From positions 1-35,207 of the forward strand of contig VGHJ01000029.1 of the NCBI GenBank assembly GCA_016868295.1: 35,207 nucleotides of DNA. Reading direction: 5' to 3'. The notes beneath the pieces are model-generated. The model searched no databases. It was not told where the DNA came from and saw only the letters and a program-made list of their open reading frames with translations. Origin of the DNA: Betaproteobacteria bacterium (GTDB lineage: Bacteria; Pseudomonadota; Gammaproteobacteria; Burkholderiales; Rhodocyclaceae). Shown here piece by piece: positions 1-24,810 of this stretch (its first letter is position 1; each line of letters starts with the position of its first letter). The position numbers and the translations under genes are program-made.

Positions 1-439
1 TGACACCGAGAGCAGCACCGTAGAAAATGCCGCCCGCCAGATCGCCGAGGCCGACCATGCCGCCGGCCTGGGTCCAGCGGAACGCCTCGGTACCGCTGGC
101 ACTCTCGCTGTTGCCCACCACGACCGAACCATCGGCGCTGACGCCGCTAGCAACACTGTGGAAAATGCCGCCCGCCAGATCGCCGAGGCCGACCATGCCG
201 CCGGCCTGGGTCCAGCGGAACGCTTCGGTGCCGCTGGCGCTTTCGCCGCGACCCACCACGACCGAACCGTCGGCGCTGGTGCCGTAAGCAATACTCTCGA
301 AATTGCCGCCCGCCAGATCGCCCAGCGGCGTAAAGCTCTGCGCCTGCACTGACGCCGAGAGCAGCGGCAAGGCGGCAGCCAATGCGAGAACGAGCGGGCG
401 CAGGCGAGGGCTGCGGTGTAGACGGATAGGGCGGTGCAT
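1..439 (-). CDS. HAF-repeat secreted protein, N-terminal part (runs off the left edge)
   Basis: Read on the minus strand, an ATG at 439-437 opens a frame that stays open to the window edge (146 codons seen). A good Shine-Dalgarno GGAGAT lies just upstream. The product begins with a basic N-terminus, a hydrophobic stretch and a likely signal-peptidase site at ASVQA/QS (about residue 33), so it is exported. The mature part is made of 46-residue repeats of the form GDLAGG...S.A.GVSADGSVVVG...SGTEAFRWTQAGGMVGL, which match the HAF repeat family of extracellular and autotransporter-like proteins. I see about two full repeats and part of a third. The function is unknown; proteins of this kind are often large and may carry an autotransporter or sorting domain at the C-terminus, which lies outside the window. 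The family call is fairly sure, the role is not. Confidence 0.8.
   Translation of the reverse strand, partial: MHRPIRLHRSPRLRPLVLALAAALPLLSASVQAQSFTPLGDLAGGNFESIAYGTSADGSVVVGRGESASGTEAFRWTQAGGMVGLGDLAGGIFHSVASGVSADGSVVVGNSESASGTEAFRWTQAGGMVGLGDLAGGIFYGAALGV
27..302 (-). repeat. 138-bp tandem repeats inside the HAF-repeat gene
   Basis: Two adjacent 138-bp units (27-164 and 165-302) are close to identical over their first 60 bases and diverge mainly over the stretch coding for the GVSADGSVVVGNSES part. A further partial unit lies on each side. 138 bp is exactly 46 codons, so gain or loss of a unit keeps the frame. Confidence 0.85.
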
Positions 440-17294: not shown

Positions 17295-18473
17295 ATGATC
17301 GAATTCGAGCTCTGGTGGCTGCTGGCCGTCCCCCTCTTCTTCGCCCTGGGCTGGATGGCCGCGCGCGTGGACATCCGCCACGTCGTGCGCGAGTCGCGCG
17401 CCCTGCCGAAATCCTATTTCAAGGGGCTCAACTTCCTGCTCAACGAGCAGCCCGACAAGGCCATCGACGCCTTCCTCGAAGCCGCCAAGGTGGATTCGGA
17501 GACGGTCGAACTGCACTTCGCCATCGGCAATCTGTTCCGCCGTCGCGGCGAGACCGATCGCGCCATCCGCATGCACCAGAGCCTGGTCGAGCGCGAGGGG
17601 CTGCGCGAGGACCAGCGCCTGCAGGCGCTGGCCGAGCTGGGGCACGACTTCCTCAAGGCCGGCCTGCTCGACCGCGCCGAGGAAATCTTCCTGCGCCTGC
17701 GCGACACGGCGCGCGACGAGGAGGCGCTCACCTTCCTGCTCGAGATCTACCAGCAGGAGAAGGAATGGCGCAAGGCGATCGGCATCGCCCGGCAGCTGCC
17801 CGACCATTCCGGACACCTGTGGCAGAAGGAAATCGCCAACTTCTACTGCGAGCTGGCCTCGGCCGAGATCAACAACTCGCGTCCCCAGGAGGCGCTCGGC
17901 CTGCTCGAGGAGGCGCTGGCGACGCACCGCAAGTCGGTGCGGGCGACCATGCTCCTCGGCGACCTGCATGCCGTGGGCGGCGATCATGAGGCGGCGATCG
18001 AGGCCTGGAAGCGCATCGAGCAGCAGAATCCCGTCTATCTCTCTCTGGTGGCGGCCAAGCTGATGGAGGCCTACCGCAAGCTCGGGCGCAGCCGCGAGGG
18101 CCTGCAGCTCCTGCGCGGTTACCTGGAGCAGCATCCCTCGCTCGACATGCTCGATGCCGCTTTTCAGTGGACGCTGGAGGACGAGAGTCCGGAGGCGGCC
18201 TACCTGCTGGTGCGTGAGGAGCTGCGGCGCAACCCGACCCTGCTCGGCCTCGACAAGCTGCTCGAGGCGCAGGTCCTCGTGGCGCCGCCGGAGCGGCGTG
18301 CCGAGCTGGAACTGACGCGGAACCTGATCCACGGCCATACGCGAAAGGTGGCGCGCTACCGCTGCGACGGTTGCGGCTTCAAGGCGCGGCAGTTCTACTG
18401 GCGCTGCCCGGGGTGCGGCGCGTGGGAGAGCTACCCGCCGAAGCGCACGGAAGAATTCGACCTGACGCCATGA
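17295..18473 (+). CDS. lapB: LPS assembly protein B (TPR and rubredoxin-like domain)
   Basis: 392 residues: one N-terminal membrane helix (about 4-22), TPR repeats over residues 35-340 facing the cytoplasm, and a C-terminal rubredoxin-like metal site with two C-x-x-C pairs (YRCDGCGFKARQFYWRCPGC). In E. coli LapB (YciM) delivers LpxC to FtsH and is itself sensed by YejM/PbgA; it is a control point of LPS synthesis. It opens a run of LPS sugar genes (ugd, rfaE1, hldD), which fits. All metal-binding cysteines are present. The start ATG 17295 follows GGGGGCCGG. Behind it lies repeat element A. Confidence 0.94.
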   Translation: MIEFELWWLLAVPLFFALGWMAARVDIRHVVRESRALPKSYFKGLNFLLNEQPDKAIDAFLEAAKVDSETVELHFAIGNLFRRRGETDRAIRMHQSLVEREGLREDQRLQALAELGHDFLKAGLLDRAEEIFLRLRDTARDEEALTFLLEIYQQEKEWRKAIGIARQLPDHSGHLWQKEIANFYCELASAEINNSRPQEALGLLEEALATHRKSVRATMLLGDLHAVGGDHEAAIEAWKRIEQQNPVYLSLVAAKLMEAYRKLGRSREGLQLLRGYLEQHPSLDMLDAAFQWTLEDESPEAAYLLVREELRRNPTLLGLDKLLEAQVLVAPPERRAELELTRNLIHGHTRKVARYRCDGCGFKARQFYWRCPGCGAWESYPPKRTEEFDLTP

Positions 18474-18485
18474 GCATTTACGCCC

Positions 18486-18595
18486 CCATCCCCCCCGCCC
18501 CCCCTTCCCGAGGAAGGGGGGTGACGGTTGTTCAGCCACGGCGTGGCTTCCGGTTTGTTGACTTGCCGCTCTCTTGGGGCGGCCCGGCGAGAGCG
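18486..18595 (+). repeat. structured dispersed repeat, copy A
   Basis: About 110 bp filling the lapB-ugd gap, matching copy B at 24460-24564. Hairpin 1: CCCCCCTTCC/GGAAGGGGGG (18499-18508 with 18512-18521, loop CGA). Shared GTGACGGTTGTTC follows. Hairpin 2: AGCCAC/GTGGCT (18534-18539 with 18543-18548). Hairpin 3: CGCTCTC/GAGAGCG (18567-18573 with 18589-18595) around the 15-base loop TTGGGGCGGCCCGGC, identical in copy B although the stem arms differ. The last arm ends two bases before the ugd ATG. The element has no coding capacity of its own. It resembles REP-like palindromic elements in style, but I know no named family with this loop. Confidence 0.85.
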
Positions 18596-18597
18596 TC

Positions 18598-19923
18598 ATG
18601 AAGATCACCGTCATCGGCACCGGCTACGTCGGGCTCGTCAGCGGCGCCTGCCTCGCCGAGGTGGGCAACGACGTGCTGTGCCTCGACCTCGATGCGGAGA
18701 AGATCCGCATCCTCAACGCCGGCGGCATGCCCATCCACGAGCCGGGCCTGCAGGAGATGGTCGCGCGCAACCGCGCCGCCGGCCGCCTGCGTTTCGGCAC
18801 CGACGTCGCCGAGGCGGTGGCGCACGGCCTGCTGCAGTTCATCGCCGTCGGCACGCCGCCCGACGAGGACGGCTCGGCGGACCTGCAGTACGTCGTCGCC
18901 GCGGCGCGCTCGATCGGCCGCCACATGGACGGTTACAGGGCGATCGTGGACAAGTCGACCGTGCCGGTCGGCACGGCGGACAAGGTGCGCGCGGCGGTGG
19001 CCGAGGAACTGGCGGCGCGCGGCCTCAAGGCCGAGTTCAGCGTCGTCTCCAATCCGGAGTTCCTCAAGGAGGGTGCCGCGGTGGAGGACTTCATGCGTCC
19101 CGACCGCATCATCGTCGGCGCCGAGGAGGCGCGGGCGATCGACCTGATGCGCCAGCTCTATGCGCCCTTCCAGAGGAGCCACGAGCGCCTGATCGTCATG
19201 GACGTGCGCTCGGCCGAGCTGACCAAGTATGCCGCCAATGCCATGCTGGCCACCCGCATCTCCTTCATGAACGAGCTGGCCAACCTGGCCGAGAAGCTGG
19301 GCGCCGACATCGAGCAGGTGCGCCAGGGCATCGGCGCCGACCCGCGCATCGGCTACCAGTTCCTCTATCCCGGCTGCGGCTACGGCGGTTCCTGCTTTCC
19401 CAAGGACGTGCAGGCGCTCAACCGCACGGCGGCCGAGGCGGGCAGCGCGCTGCGCGTGCTGGCCGCGGTGGAGGCGGCCAACGAACACCAGAAGGGCGTG
19501 CTCGGCCGCAAGATCGTCGCCGCCTTCGGCGAGAACCTCGCCGGGCGCCGCTTCGCCCTGTGGGGCCTCGCCTTCAAGCCCAACACCGACGACATGCGCG
19601 AGGCGCCCAGCCGCACGGTCGTCGCCGACCTCCTGGCGCGCGGCGCCACGGTCTGCGCCTACGACCCCGTGGCGATGAGTGAAGCGCGCCGCGTCTTCGG
19701 CGCCGAGCCGCGCATCGTCTATGCCGCGTCGCCGATGGCTGCGCTCGACGAGGCCGACGCGCTGGTGATCGTCACCGAGTGGAAGGAGTTCAGGAGCCCC
19801 GATTTCGGCGAGATGAAGCGGCGCCTGAAGTCGCCGCGGGTCTTCGACGGCCGCAACCTCTACGACCCGGCGACGCTGCATGCGGCCGGCATCGACTACC
19901 ACGCGATAGGAAGGACGCAATGA
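18598..19923 (+). CDS. ugd: UDP-glucose 6-dehydrogenase
   Basis: Oxidises UDP-glucose to UDP-glucuronate with two NAD+, supplying uronic acid for LPS or exopolysaccharide. 441 residues: N-terminal NAD motif GTGYVG (7-12), [32 protein letters not shown], central helix with [20 protein letters not shown], nucleophile Cys266 in [12 protein letters not shown], and a C-terminal UDP-binding domain with [16 protein letters not shown] chose ATG 18598 because [12 protein letters not shown] is the normal family start; an earlier in-frame ATG at 18574 lies in the loop of repeat A. There is only a weak Shine-Dalgarno (GAGAG), and it lies in a hairpin arm of that repeat. The stop overlaps the next start (ATGA). 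Confidence 0.96.
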
Positions 19924-20858
19924 GCACGCTCACGCTGCCCGATACCGCCCGGGCGCGCATCCTCGTCGTCGGCGACGTCATGCTCGACCGCTACTGGTTC
20001 GGCGCGGTCGAGCGCATCTCGCCCGAGGCGCCGGTGCCGGTGGTCAAGGTCGAGCGCACCGAGGAGCGCCCCGGCGGCGCCGCCAACGTCGCGCGCAATT
20101 GCGCCGCGCTGGGCGCCAGGGTCTCCCTGCTCTCCGTCGTCGGCGCCGACGAGGCCGGCCAGGCGCTGTCGCGCCTGCTCGCCGCCGAAGGCATCGCCGC
20201 CAGCCTGCACGAGGACGCCGAGCTGTCGACCACCGTCAAGCTGCGCGTCGTCGGCCGCCAGCAGCAGCTGATGCGCATCGATTTCGAGCAGGCGCCGGCG
20301 CACGAGGTGCTGCGCGCCAAGCTCGCCGAGTACGAGCGGCAACTGCCCGATTGCGACGCGGTGATCCTGTCCGACTACGGCAAGGGCGGCCTCGCCCATA
20401 TCGGCGAGATGATCCGGCTGGCGCGCGCGGCGGGCAAACCGGTGCTGGCCGATCCCAAGGGCGAGGACTATGTCCGCTATGCCGGCGCCACGCTGCTCAC
20501 GCCCAACCGCGCCGAGCTGCGCCAGGTGGTCGGACGCTGGTCCGGCGAGGAGGATCTCCAGGCGCGCGCCGGCAAGCTCATGCGCGAACTGGGCCTGGCG
20601 GCCCTGCTGGTGACGCGCAGCGAGGAGGGCATGACCCTGTTCCGTGACGGCGAGACGGCGCACGAGCCGGCCCAGGCGCGGGAGGTTTATGATGTGAGCG
20701 GCGCCGGCGACACCGTCATCGCCACCCTGGCCGTCATGCTGGCGAGCGGGGCCGACCTGCGCGATGCCATGCGCCTGGCCAATCGCGCCGCCGGCATCGT
20801 CGTCGGCAAGCTCGGCACCGCCGTCGCGACGCTCGAGGAACTGCGCGCCGCCCTTTGA
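19920..20858 (+). CDS. rfaE1: D-glycero-beta-D-manno-heptose-7-phosphate kinase (RfaE domain I)
   Basis: Phosphorylates heptose 7-phosphate at C1 on the way to ADP-heptose for the LPS inner core. 312 residues of the PfkB/ribokinase fold: [11 protein letters not shown] near the start, [12 protein letters not shown] for substrate binding, [12 protein letters not shown], and the catalytic base Asp264 in [11 protein letters not shown]. The adenylyltransferase domain that E. coli HldE carries at its C-terminus is absent, so a separate rfaE2/hldC gene must exist outside the window. The ATG overlaps the ugd stop; hldD follows 16 bases later, so the ADP-heptose steps are grouped. Confidence 0.95.
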
Positions 20859-20874
20859 TCAACGGAAGAATGAC

Positions 20875-21882
20875 ATGTATACCATCGTGACCGGCGCCGC
20901 CGGGTTTATCGGCGCCAATCTGGTAAAGGCGCTCAATGCGCGCGGCGTCAGCGACATCATCGCCGTCGACAACCTGACGCAGGGCGACAAGTTCCGCAAC
21001 CTGGTCGACTGCGAGATCGCCGACTATCTCGACAAGCGGGAGTTCATCGAGGCGCTGGCAGCCGGGGACCTCGACGGCGCCGTCGAGGCCGTCCTGCACC
21101 AGGGCGCCTGCTCCGACACCATGGAGCACGACGGCCGCTACATGATGGACAACAACTACCGCTATTCGCTCGAGCTGCTCGACTTCTGCCTCGACCAGGA
21201 GGTGCCCTTCCTCTACGCCTCCTCGGCTTCGGTCTACGGCGGCGGGCGCGTCTTCCGCGAGTCGCGCGAGTTCGAGGCGCCGCTCAATGTCTACGGCTAC
21301 TCGAAGTTCCTTTTCGACCAGGCGGTGCGGCGCCGAATCGGGTCAAATGCGGCCCAGGCTAACTTATCCTCCCAGGTCGTCGGCTTCCGCTACTTCAACG
21401 TCTATGGCCCGCGCGAGAGCCACAAGGGGCGCATGGCCTCGGTGGCCTTCCACTTCTTCAACCAGTACCGGGCCGAGGGCAAGGTGAAGCTCTTCGAGGG
21501 CTGCGACGGCTACGGCAACGGCGAGCAGCGGCGCGACTTCATCCACGTCGACGACGTGGTGAAGGTGAACCTGCACTTCCTCGATTGCGGCGCCTCCGGC
21601 ATCTACAACGTCGGCACCGGGCGCGCGCAGACCTTCAACGATGTCGCCGTGGCGACGGTGAATGCCTGCCGCGCCGCGCAGGGCGAGGCGCCGCTGCCGC
21701 TGGCGGAACTGCGCAGCCGCGGCATGATCGAATACATCGCCTTCCCCGAAGCGCTGAAGGGCAAGTACCAGAGCTACACCGAGGCCGACGTCTCGCGGCT
21801 GCGCGAGGCCGGCTACGACGCGCCGTTCGCCACGGTGGAGGAAGGCGTCGCGCGCTACGTGCAGGAGAGGCTGAAGCCGTGA
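20875..21882 (+). CDS. hldD: ADP-L-glycero-D-manno-heptose-6-epimerase
   Basis: Last step of ADP-heptose synthesis: epimerisation at C6 using bound NADP. 335 residues of the extended SDR fold: GAAGFIG at 7-13, [27 protein letters not shown], the YxxxK pair Y140/K144, and [20 protein letters not shown]. Shine-Dalgarno GGAAG precedes ATG 20875. Odd point: between FLFDQAVRR and SQVVGFRYF the protein has GSNAAQANL, a few residues more than the E. coli enzyme, coded by an AT-richer stretch (about 21338-21372). The end overlaps the cysM GTG. Confidence 0.95.
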
Positions 21883-22778
21883 AACAGGTGATCGAGGACT
21901 TCGTTGGCAACACGCCCCTGGTGCGCCTGAAGCGCCTGCCCGGCGCCGACAACGAGCGCCGCGGCAACGTCATCCTGGCCAAGCTGGAGGGCAACAACCC
22001 GGCCGGCTCGGTGAAGGACCGGCCGGCGCTGTCGATGATCCTGCGCGCCGAGGCGCGCGGCGACATCAGGCCGGGCGACACCCTGATCGAGGCCACCAGC
22101 GGCAACACCGGCATCGCGCTGGCCATGGCGGCGACCATGCGCGGCTACCGCATGGTGCTGATCATGCCGGAGCATCTTTCCGTCGAGCGGCGCCAGACCA
22201 TGCGCGCCTTCGGCGCCGAGATCGTGCTGACCGCGCAGAAGGGCGGCATGGAGATGGCGCGCGACGTCGCCGACAAGATGGTGGCCGAAGGCAAGGGCAT
22301 CATGCTCGACCAGTTCGCCAATCACGACAATCCGCTTGCCCACTACGAAGGCACGGGCCCGGAGATCTGGCGCGACACGGACGGGAAACTCACCCACTTC
22401 GTCTCCAGCATGGGCACCACCGGCACCATCATGGGCTGCTCGCGCTTCTTCAAGGAAAAGAATCCGAAGATCGAGATCGTCGGCTGCCAGCCGGAGGAAG
22501 GCTCGCAGATCCCCGGCATCCGCAAGTGGCCGGAGGAATACCTGCCGAAGATCTACGACAGGCGCGGCGTGGACCGCCTCGAGTACGTCAGCCAGGCCGA
22601 CGCCGAGGAGATGACGCGGCGCATGGCGCGCGAGGAAGGCCTCTTCGCCGGCATCTCCTCGGGCGGCGCCATGGCGGTGGCCCTGCGCGTGGCCGGACAG
22701 GTGGAAAACGCCGTGATCGTCACCATCGTCTGCGACCGCGGCGACCGCTATCTGTCCACGGGCGTCTTCCCCGCCTGA
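21879..22778 (+). CDS. cysM: cysteine synthase B (O-acetylserine sulfhydrylase, CysM type)
   Basis: Makes cysteine from O-acetylserine and sulfide or thiosulfate with PLP. 299 residues from GTG 21879: PLP Lys46 in [11 protein letters not shown], the TSGNTG loop (about 70-75), [15 protein letters not shown], and the C-terminal ISSGGAM. CysM-type features are the GSVKDR motif and shorter length compared with CysK. GTG is favoured over upstream codons because homology starts at [13 protein letters not shown] and GGAGAGG lies ahead of it; the GTG overlaps the hldD stop. Neighbourhood with hldD is common in betaproteobacteria, but I see no functional link. Confidence 0.93.
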
Positions 22779-22791
22779 GCCACGATTGCGG

Positions 22792-24810
22792 ATGATCTTC
22801 CGCGCCGCCGTATTCCTCGGACTGACTTTTCTTGCGGCTCTGCCTTGCGGCGCGGCGCAACTCACCCTGTCCCTCGGTTCGATCCGCCATGCGGCCTTCG
22901 AGGCCGAAGGCGTGACGGTCTCAATGGATGCGGCGCGGCGCGGCGAGGCCGACATCCGCTTCGGCCGTCTGCTCGTCGCCGGCGCCGAGTACCGCGAGCT
23001 GAAGCTGCACTGCTCGGGCTTCTACTTCGACGGGCGCCGCCTCGACTGCCCGGAAGGAACCCTGCGCCGCGACGATGCGCGCGGCCGCGAGCGGCCGGCG
23101 CTGCCCTTCGCCTTCGCCTGGCGCGCCGACGGTTTTCTCGACTTCTCGCTGCGCGGCGTCGACGCCGTCGCCTTTTCGCCCCTCGTCAAGCGACTGCGCG
23201 GCTGGAAGCCGCAAGGCCGCATCGACCTGGCCCTGAGAGTGGACGGCGACCGGGCGAAGCTCGATCTGGCCGCGCACGACCTCGAGTTCGCCAGCCGCGA
23301 AGGCGACATTGCCGGCAAGGGCATTTCCTTCACCCTCGACGCCGCGGCCGAGAGGAGCGGCGACAACTGGCACTGGCGCGCCCGGCTCGACTGGCCGCAG
23401 GGCGAGTTGGTCCGCGCGCCCTGGCGGCGCACGGCCGGCGTGCGGCTCGAGGCAGAGGGCGATCTCAACCGGGAGATGCTGGAGGTTGACCTGGCGCGGC
23501 TCGACGTGGCCGGTTTCGGCGCCGTCAGTGCCGGACTGCGCTGGAGCCGCGAGCGCGGCGAGGCCACCGACTGGGGCTTCATCACCGAGCGCATCGACCT
23601 CTCGGTGGCCATGCGCGACTGGTTGCAGCCGTGGCTCACCTCGCTCGGCTTTCCCGAGTGGCAGGCCTCGGGGCATGCCCGCTTCTCCGCCGAATGGGCC
23701 GCCGGCGGATTGCGCCGCTTCTATGCCGGGCTGGAGGAAGCGGCGCTCGCGGACGGCACCGGCCACCTCGAGTTGAACGGGGTCAACGCTCGCATTCCCT
23801 GGGAGGCCGGGGTGCCGACCGAGGCCGAGATCGGCATTGCCAGCGGCCGGCTCGGCGACCTGCCGCTGGGCGGCTTCGCCCTGCCGCTGAAGATGGACGG
23901 CCACGAGGCGAAGGTGGAAGGCCTGGTGGCGCCGCTGCTCGACGGACGCCTGGTGGTCGATGAGCTGCGCCTGGCGAAAAGTCAGTCCGGCTGGCACGGC
24001 GAATTCGAAGGGGGCATCGAGGGCGTCTCCATGCCCAAGCTGTCGCGTGCCCTCAGGCTGCCGGCCATGGCGGGCAGCCTGACGGCGCGCATCCCGCGCA
24101 TCGCCTACGAGCAGGGGGTGCTCCATCTCGACGGCGCCCTCGGCATCGAAGTGTTCGACGGCGGCATCACGGTGCACCAGCTGCGCCTGCTCGACCCCTT
24201 CGGCAAGAACCGACGCTTCGTCGCCGACGTCACGGCGCGCAACCTCGACCTCGGCATGCTGACGCGGACGTTTTCCTTCGGCGCCATCGAGGGGCGCTTC
24301 GACGCCGATCTGCGCGAGCTGGAGATGCAGGGCTGGAAGCCGCTGCGCTTCGAGGCGCGCATCGGCAGCAGCCCGGGCGACTATCCGCGCAGTCTGAGCA
24401 TCGGCGCGCTGAAGGACATCACCGCGCTGGGCGAGGCCGGCTCGCCCGAGGTAGAACAACCATCCCTCCGCCCCCTTCCCGGGGAAGGGGGTGACGATTG
24501 TTCGCCGCGATGCGGCTCCAGGCCGCTGAAAGAGCCATCCTTGGGGCGGCCCGGCGGATGGCTCGCGCGCGCGCCGGAGCGTTCCGGCTTCAGCTTCGGC
24601 TATGCGCGCATCGGCCTCGGCTGCACGCTGAAAGACGGCGTCTGCCTGCTCGAGGGCGTCGAGCGCGAAGGCCAGGGCGTGGTGCTGATGCGCGGGGCCG
24701 GCGTGCCGTCGGTGAGGATCATCGGCTACAATCGGCATATCGACTGGGAGGCGCTGGTGGCGCGGATTCGCGAAGTCATCGCGGGCCGTCCCGGCGTCGT
24801 CATCGAATGA
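22792..24810 (+). CDS. YdbH-like AsmA-type envelope protein (lipid-transport family), with repeat B inside
   Basis: 672 residues. A signal peptide or N-terminal anchor MIFRAAVFLGLTFLAALPCGAA is followed by long alternating beta-strand sequence with amphipathic strands (LDLAAHDLEFASREGD, GRIDLALRVDG), as in AsmA/TamB-like proteins. No catalytic motif is seen. The C-terminus ends GVPSVRIIGYNRHIDWEALVARI. The call rests mainly on fold style and on the following 40-residue lipoprotein, which matches the E. coli ydbH-ynbE arrangement; E. coli YdbH and YnbE connect inner and outer membranes for lipid traffic. Residues about 557-591 are translated from repeat element B and look foreign (LRPLPGEGG, LGRPGG). 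The start could also be a TTG six bases upstream. Shine-Dalgarno is weak. Confidence 0.62.
   Translation: MIFRAAVFLGLTFLAALPCGAAQLTLSLGSIRHAAFEAEGVTVSMDAARRGEADIRFGRLLVAGAEYRELKLHCSGFYFDGRRLDCPEGTLRRDDARGRERPALPFAFAWRADGFLDFSLRGVDAVAFSPLVKRLRGWKPQGRIDLALRVDGDRAKLDLAAHDLEFASREGDIAGKGISFTLDAAAERSGDNWHWRARLDWPQGELVRAPWRRTAGVRLEAEGDLNREMLEVDLARLDVAGFGAVSAGLRWSRERGEATDWGFITERIDLSVAMRDWLQPWLTSLGFPEWQASGHARFSAEWAAGGLRRFYAGLEEAALADGTGHLELNGVNARIPWEAGVPTEAEIGIASGRLGDLPLGGFALPLKMDGHEAKVEGLVAPLLDGRLVVDELRLAKSQSGWHGEFEGGIEGVSMPKLSRALRLPAMAGSLTARIPRIAYEQGVLHLDGALGIEVFDGGITVHQLRLLDPFGKNRRFVADVTARNLDLGMLTRTFSFGAIEGRFDADLRELEMQGWKPLRFEARIGSSPGDYPRSLSIGALKDITALGEAGSPEVEQPSLRPLPGEGGDDCSPRCGSRPLKEPSLGRPGGWLARAPERSGFSFGYARIGLGCTLKDGVCLLEGVEREGQGVVLMRGAGVPSVRIIGYNRHIDWEALVARIREVIAGRPGVVIE
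22822..22830 (+). other. CTGACTTTT motif, copy 4
   Basis: Inside the signal-peptide part of the YdbH-like gene, as GGACTGACTTTTC; reads Gly-Leu-Thr-Phe. Confidence 0.5.
23977..23985 (-). other. CTGACTTTT motif, copy 5
   Basis: Minus-strand copy inside the YdbH-like gene, again as GGACTGACTTTTC. In the coding frame it reads Lys-Ser-Gln-Ser, so the protein does not explain it. Confidence 0.5.
24460..24564 (+). repeat. structured dispersed repeat, copy B (inside a gene)
   Basis: About 105 bp, partner of copy A at 18486-18595. Hairpin 1: CCCCCTTCC/GGAAGGGGG (24471-24479 with 24483-24491, loop CGG). Shared GTGACGATTGTTC. Hairpin 2: GCCGC/GCGGC (24504-24508 with 24512-24516, loop GAT). Hairpin 3: GAGCCATCC/GGATGGCTC (24532-24540 with 24556-24564), a perfect 9-bp stem around the same 15-base loop as in A. 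The reading frame of the host gene passes through without a stop. Confidence 0.85.

Follow-up and report, generated by a model that had tools for sequence, protein, structure and literature searches.

A dispersed three-hairpin repeat of betaproteobacteria, probably a mobile DNA tolerated at gene junctions through bridging reading frames

Introduction

The Beta-proteobacterial repeat element (BRE) is a GC-rich chromosomal sequence of 75-91 bp, found between genes, sometimes inside them and in tandem runs, in Comamonadaceae, Bordetella and one Azoarcus, according to the accessible part of its description (Hot et al. 2011, PMC3110155). Rickettsia palindromic elements (RPE) are palindromic sequences of ~150 bp that, in the available text of PMC10969869, insert in frame into protein genes and contain an open frame. 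A synthetic design, the nfORF translation booster, places a short nonsense frame directly upstream of a gene, with a ribosome site by its stop (excerpted text of PMC13255528). The subject here is a dispersed three-hairpin element that occurs twice in a contig of 35,207 nucleotides (VGHJ01000029.1 of assembly GCA_016868295.1, hereafter the window) from a betaproteobacterium of the Rhodocyclaceae. BRE is the only betaproteobacterial repeat of such sort that we recognised in the literature searched, and other papers could describe the longer form, type A, to which both window copies belong; the accessible text of a survey of repetitive extragenic palindromic (REP) sequences (PMC12306157) does not mention the taxon names looked for.

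The element is probably a non-autonomous mobile DNA that is tolerated at gene junctions as translationally transparent. Many copies lie between two RTGA overlaps (ATGA or GTGA, a stop codon meeting a start codon), and an open frame runs from one overlap to the other on the strand that the genes use. The preliminary description of the window, made from its letters alone, had proposed two copies with shared hairpins, an identical 15-base loop and third-hairpin arms that differ yet pair, and had taken them for a dispersed repeat with compensatory changes in its stems, which could be mobile DNA or a structured RNA. Both copies are where it placed them, many more exist, and empty sites in relatives mark them as insertions. 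The extent of copy 1 needs correction, as the unit is longer than proposed and fills 18474-18597 between two ATGA.

Reading frames across the element

A bridge was defined as an RTGA 4-16 nt past the loop together with an open RTGA-to-RTGA frame of 75-135 nt. Such a bridge is open in 47/59 type-A copies with an RTGA after the stem, against 565 of the 16641 RTGA sites (3.4%) in the same loci, and on the antisense side in 20/44 reversed copies. In a stricter set, where both overlaps are found, the frame is kept in 25/26 forward and 17/18 reversed copies, and the overlap-to-overlap lengths vary in steps of 3, from 107 to 128 forward and from 113 to 125 reversed. Where the start codon stands exactly 9 bases past the loop (36 copies), 35 copies are open in its frame and 15 and 0 in the other two. 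The shorter type B holds a bridge in 7/33 copies, one of them running across a tandem neighbour. In the window, copy 1 bridges lapB to ugd. In the co-oriented class the constant 15-mer is usually read as (P/S)WGGPA. The preliminary description had considered the element too small to code for a protein; many copies nevertheless hold these frame-keeping bridges, for which no protein function is claimed.

The element also brings sequences resembling ribosome-binding sites. A Shine-Dalgarno core (GGAG, GAGG or AGGA) is present in the 3′ arm of the third hairpin in 30/36 forward copies, 0/27 reversed copies and 29/80 other copies. In the reversed orientation the left C-run reads as a Shine-Dalgarno core on the opposite strand, and a looser set of cores is present before the other-strand start in 16/19 reversed copies.

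Filled and empty sites

Twenty sites of the genome that contains the window were queried in 15 other genomes of the genus. The copies are insertions, since relatives without the element were found for 19 of these sites; at the exception, locus L006, none of the loci compared aligned and a contiguous match is listed in genome G121. At the lapB-ugd junction 12 of these 15 genomes were compared: G154 holds the element, G010 is rearranged, seven have a short native spacer instead and three a longer, different sequence. ATGA stands on both sides of the filled copy; the empty relatives have no overlap, and the site shows no duplication. Copy 2 lies in frame within an open reading frame (ORF 22786-24810); among 12 other genomes read at this site it is present in G161 and absent from 11, and it adds a net ~36 codons. 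Two further in-frame intragenic copies give net gains of 75 and 105 bases, in genes that we take to be hemW and hrpA.

At 7/19 sites one overlap in the empty relative corresponds to two in the filled one, with three clear cases, one ambiguous case and three with one base changed (L002, L003 and L014). The identical doubled overlaps are ATGA at L023 and L024, TCAT at L027 and TCAC at L025; the last is ambiguous, as the empty relatives differ from one another at this junction and some already have TCAC twice. A second TCAT lies near the L027 empty site, and at L010 and L013 the duplication is less clear.

Two further candidates were rejected. The idea of a longer target duplication, extending into the downstream gene, finds no support in the positions after the ATGA, which match about as often as shuffled ones. 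The proposal of a 3′ arm that comes from the target, with a 5′ arm copied from it in inverted form, is rejected in general by six empty sites (L002, L003, L014, L023, L024 and L027), which hold at most the last 3 arm bases; at these sites the 9-base arm is clearly carried by the element.

Some sites have a more complex history. At L182, L191, L285 and L286 the same junctions hold different inserts in other species of the genus and look like insertion hot spots. At L284 (G010, a grxC-like junction) and L279 (G121, an ftsA/Q-like junction) the element itself contains other sequences, namely a further hairpin unit in hairpin 1 and ~24 bases inside the constant loop; from this nesting, the hairpin tips may themselves be targets. 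The left end of the L149 copy, ACCTAT, coincides with the gene start ATGAGGACCTAT in an 11-base direct repeat, a possible sign of microhomology at insertion.

Stem pairing

The 8-bp stem beside the loop has 0.896 of its positions paired across 237 distinct copies of all types, with 7 or 8 of the 8 positions paired in 198 of them. These copies carry 123 distinct 8-base 3′ arms, and varied but complementary arms are what the preliminary description had named as support. When the stem is slid by 1, 2, 3 or 4 positions, pairing falls to 0.34, 0.315, 0.421 and 0.343. Over 188 copies a mean of 7.86/9 arm positions pair, compared with 4.35 after shuffling of the arms among copies (at most 4.60 in 200 shuffles); pairing ends sharply after position 8-9 and is at the background level by position 10. 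Hairpins 1 and 2 are likewise paired at most positions; their stems were picked by best pairing, and their figures therefore lean towards pairing.

The 1896 stem positions include 1699 Watson-Crick pairs, 36 G.T and 62 A.C mismatches. In hairpin 3 the ratio of G.T to A.C is 8 to 7 in forward and 8 to 7 in reversed copies, and G.U is not overrepresented in the transcript sense; this wobble-asymmetry test gave no support to selection at the RNA level. C-G/G-C swaps, which pass through no G.U intermediate, are common at stem positions 6-8. With wobble pairs rare and no strand bias, the stems look as if they are kept at the DNA level. In the accessible text of PMC8794818, template switching during DNA replication is argued to be able to create and maintain stems.

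Distribution and types

The exact loop occurs 29 times in the genome that contains the window (13 forward, 16 reverse), and its reversed-pattern control is not found. With up to 2 mismatches there are 68 loop matches against 41 in the control, so only exact and one-mismatch matches are safe. Among 150 genomes of the family the exact loop is present in 74 (reversed control in 4) and reaches at least 5 copies in 30, which bears out the further copies that the preliminary description had called for. It was found in 42/300 genomes sampled from the order, and a sample of the phylum gave a match in 16/299; the 279 genomes outside the order contributed 6 single matches against 12 for the control, with no sign of the element. 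The element-rich genomes include G041 (130 exact loops), G065 (58 copies) and G101 (35).

Types were assigned by pattern to 236 copies, giving 162 A, 33 B, 5 C and 36 other. Type A is ~105-125 bp long, and several types share the terminal hairpin with loop TTGGGGCGGCCCGGC. In G041 (L058 and L312-L333) type-B loops form tandem runs with a spacing of ~60-84 bases, and loop runs of the same spacing occur at places in G360 and G392. Plasmids and phages gave no type-A match to window copy 2, the only copy tried, and one viral contig carries a composite pattern. A type-B query matched 12 records of a plasmid collection, 10 of them across the loop and none over 80% of the query; the hosts are Burkholderia, Paraburkholderia, Variovorax, Acidovorax and Azoarcus.

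The copies in the window

The features of the two copies are collected in Table 1. The arms of hairpin 3 pair at 8/9 positions in copy 1 and at 9/9 in copy 2, around the same loop. The 3′ arm of copy 1 is purine-rich and ends at the ugd ATG. The string GGGGGTGACGRTTGTTC has 2 exact occurrences in the window; when up to 3 mismatches were tolerated, 0/100 shuffles yielded two. In RNA folds the constant loop forms a small hairpin of its own; compared with shuffles, the fold of copy 1 is unexceptional (z -0.88) and that of copy 2 exceptional (z -3.24). At the contig edge, window positions 1-325 hold a 138-base tandem repeat with two full copies and part of a third.

Table 1. Positions of the two element copies, their hairpins and adjoining genes in the window
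Feature	Position	Strand	Remarks
Left overlap ATGA, lapB/mini-ORF	18470-18473	+	TGA stop of lapB (17295-18473) overlapped by mini-ORF ATG
Type-A copy 1, 124 nt	18474-18597	+	co-oriented with lapB and ugd
Bridging mini-ORF, 43 aa	18470-18601	+	spans copy 1, overlap to overlap
Copy 1 hairpin 1 core	18502-18518	+	CCCTTCC / GGAAGGG
Copy 1 hairpin 2 plus flanks	18531-18551	+	TTCAGCCAC / GTGGCTTCC
Copy 1 hairpin 3	18565-18597	+	5′ arm 18565-18573 (GCCGCTCTC), constant loop 18574-18588 (TTGGGGCGGCCCGGC), 3′ arm 18589-18597 (GAGAGCGTC)
Right overlap ATGA, mini-ORF/ugd	18598-18601	+	ugd ATG overlapped by mini-ORF TGA
ugd, nucleotide sugar dehydrogenase	18598-19923	+	
Type-A copy 2	24451-24564	+	in frame within ORF 22786-24810; edges approximate
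Copy 2 hairpin 1	24471-24491	+	CCCCCTTCC / GGAAGGGGG
Copy 2 hairpin 2 plus flanks	24501-24519	+	TTCGCCGC / GCGGCTCC
Copy 2 hairpin 3	24532-24564	+	5′ arm GAGCCATCC, constant loop 24541-24555 (TTGGGGCGGCCCGGC), 3′ arm GGATGGCTC

Mechanism and alternatives

A mobile element of this kind would enter at a start/stop overlap through a transposition-like step that duplicates ~4 bases, with an enzyme supplied in trans. The upstream gene then keeps its stop and the downstream gene its start, and the element usually offers a Shine-Dalgarno core beside the new start as well as a bridging frame. A ribosome that initiates at the first overlap could translate through the element and terminate on the start codon beyond it; by the usual view of translational coupling, it would open stem 3 on the way and reinitiate. 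Copies that break an operon would be lost, while transparent copies, natural analogues of bicistronic design, would persist and found new ones. Because neither gene is damaged when a 4-base duplication falls on a 4-base overlap, selection after transposition can explain the enrichment at junctions. The stems would stay paired mainly through a DNA-level process rather than RNA selection, either template switching at hairpins or the need for folded DNA in movement. Taken further, the element might represent a class of mobile DNA that relies on translational transparency to spread and that enters and doubles a 4-base overlap, brings a ribosome site and a bridge on the transcribed strand, and acquires through template switching an RNA-like covariation without RNA selection; this fuller proposal is put forward tentatively, with less confidence than mobility and tolerance at junctions.

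A number of observations weigh against the reading as a transparent mobile element. No mobilising enzyme was identified, and terminal inverted repeats are unconvincing (mean 5.4/12 matches at the best of 3 shifts over 25 forward copies, with both ends C-rich). No duplication is seen at 10 of the 19 sites with an empty relative, and copies outside junctions share a flanking 4-mer in 23/80 cases (shuffled mean 17.8, maximum 26); the double overlap might therefore stem from selection rather than transposition. Bridges are missing from 12/59 forward candidates and from 24/44 on the other strand. The three antisense frames of the reversed copies (n=27) are open in 21, 27 and 27, and because all are mostly open, their openness is weak evidence and it is the frame length that tells. 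Copies outside junctions also keep their length modulo 3 (27/32), so that descent may account for part of the regularity, and copies are not independent, some being orthologues. A stretch like the 3′ arm is present in the empty relative at L013 (6/9), L025 (7/9) and lapB-ugd (first 5 bases), where the target may contribute to the arm. Orthologous copies mostly retain their arms or decay through mismatches; the single clear double change is in hrpA, between G000 and G152, and fast arm conversion is thus not shown by the orthologues.

A more specific form of the mobile-element reading, a DDE-type miniature inverted-repeat transposable element (MITE) with a 4-bp target duplication and a parent insertion sequence (IS) elsewhere or lost, is possible but doubtful. 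Identical 4-base repeats flank the element at L023, L024, L027 and probably L025, where the empty relative has the repeat once, as such an element would leave. No parent was found, however, and the lack of a duplication signal outside junctions and of convincing terminal inverted repeats speaks against it, as do the variable L025 junction and the second TCAT near the empty L027 site.

It is unlikely that the element is a structured cis-regulatory RNA, in which the 3′ arm would mask the Shine-Dalgarno sequence of the following gene as long as the upstream ribosome has not opened the stem. The three hairpins with paired, variable stems would suit such an RNA, and the frequent Shine-Dalgarno core of forward copies does lie in the paired arm. 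Against this, the element is found in both orientations, beside very different genes and in frame inside others, the mismatches have no G.U excess in the transcript sense, and searches of Rfam left the element unmatched, both in the window (E up to 5) and in 12 loci (E up to 0.5), where one sub-threshold CRISPR match falls elsewhere in L028. The structured-RNA motif suggested by the preliminary description is thus not favoured.

The other route it suggested, movement as single-stranded DNA by a Y1 HUH transposase in the manner of REP sequences and their REP-associated tyrosine transposase (RAYT), appears less probable still. Hairpins, dispersed copies and some arrays fit this route, Y1_Tnp matches are found in 75/150 family genomes and in 19/30 element-rich ones, and on the other strand CGTC precedes hairpin 1 (GACG) in 96/160 copies. 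The remaining 64/160 have other letters in place of the tag; CGTC is itself often altered to TGTC or CCTC, according to the accessible text of PMC3733652. Y1_Tnp does not seem to be needed, because 11 of the 30 genomes with at least 5 copies lack a match, including G065 and G101, and element-rich genomes are not clearly enriched for it (19/30 versus 56/120 of the others, Fisher p 0.15). The match in G041 is a mere fragment within a 1257-residue frame, and the 2.2-kb locus of the only Y1_Tnp gene in the genome of the window contains neither the loop nor the hairpin-1 strings searched for. IS200/IS605-type insertion is not known to leave a duplication, unlike the overlaps doubled at 7/19 sites. 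The only Y1_Tnp gene of the genome of the window is itself flanked, in inverted orientation, by a different repeat, in which GGGGACAGACCA occurs (L060:1100-1960).

A small protein gene family is very improbable: similar open frames with a start and a stop would fit one, but forward and reversed copies encode unrelated peptides on opposite strands, the 15-mer is constant in nucleotides even where window copy 2 reads it in another frame (as LGRPG), and no Pfam match was obtained for three mini-ORF peptides (E up to 1 for that of the window) or NCBIfam match for the window peptide (E up to 0.1).

If the element is a transparent mobile DNA, it would provide a natural experiment on how mobile DNA can reside in operons yet cause no polar effects, and dozens of candidate natural couplers, with filled and empty sites, can be compared. 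It would also be a clean case for asking whether compensatory change in a hairpin proves RNA function, and it could explain some of the short proteins predicted in betaproteobacterial genomes.

Comparison with known systems

REP sequences and bacterial interspersed mosaic elements (BIME) with their RAYT, as described in the part of PMC3733652 available, are likewise dispersed hairpins that are sometimes found inside genes. The present element differs in having three hairpins, a constant 15-base loop with variable stems and doubled overlaps, and no RAYT link was found for it in the distribution of Y1_Tnp matches over genomes or at the one locus inspected, that in the genome of the window. The nfORF booster, going by the excerpted description, is a synthetic counterpart; the element here is natural and dispersed, and has this layout in both orientations. 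BRE, in the portion of its description available, resembles type B in being short, GC-rich, tandem and present in Acidovorax and Azoarcus, whereas type A is longer and has different hairpins 1 and 2. That text gives no frames, overlap duplication, covariation or loop sequence for BRE, and the shorter type-B relative with the same loop is probably BRE, matched by description and not by sequence. The Rickettsia palindromic elements, again as far as the available description goes, share with the present element the open frame and the in-frame insertion, which is seen in window copy 2 and, by net length, in two further genes. In contrast to them, the element described here has as a favoured site, on either strand, the point where the start of one gene overlaps the stop of its neighbour.

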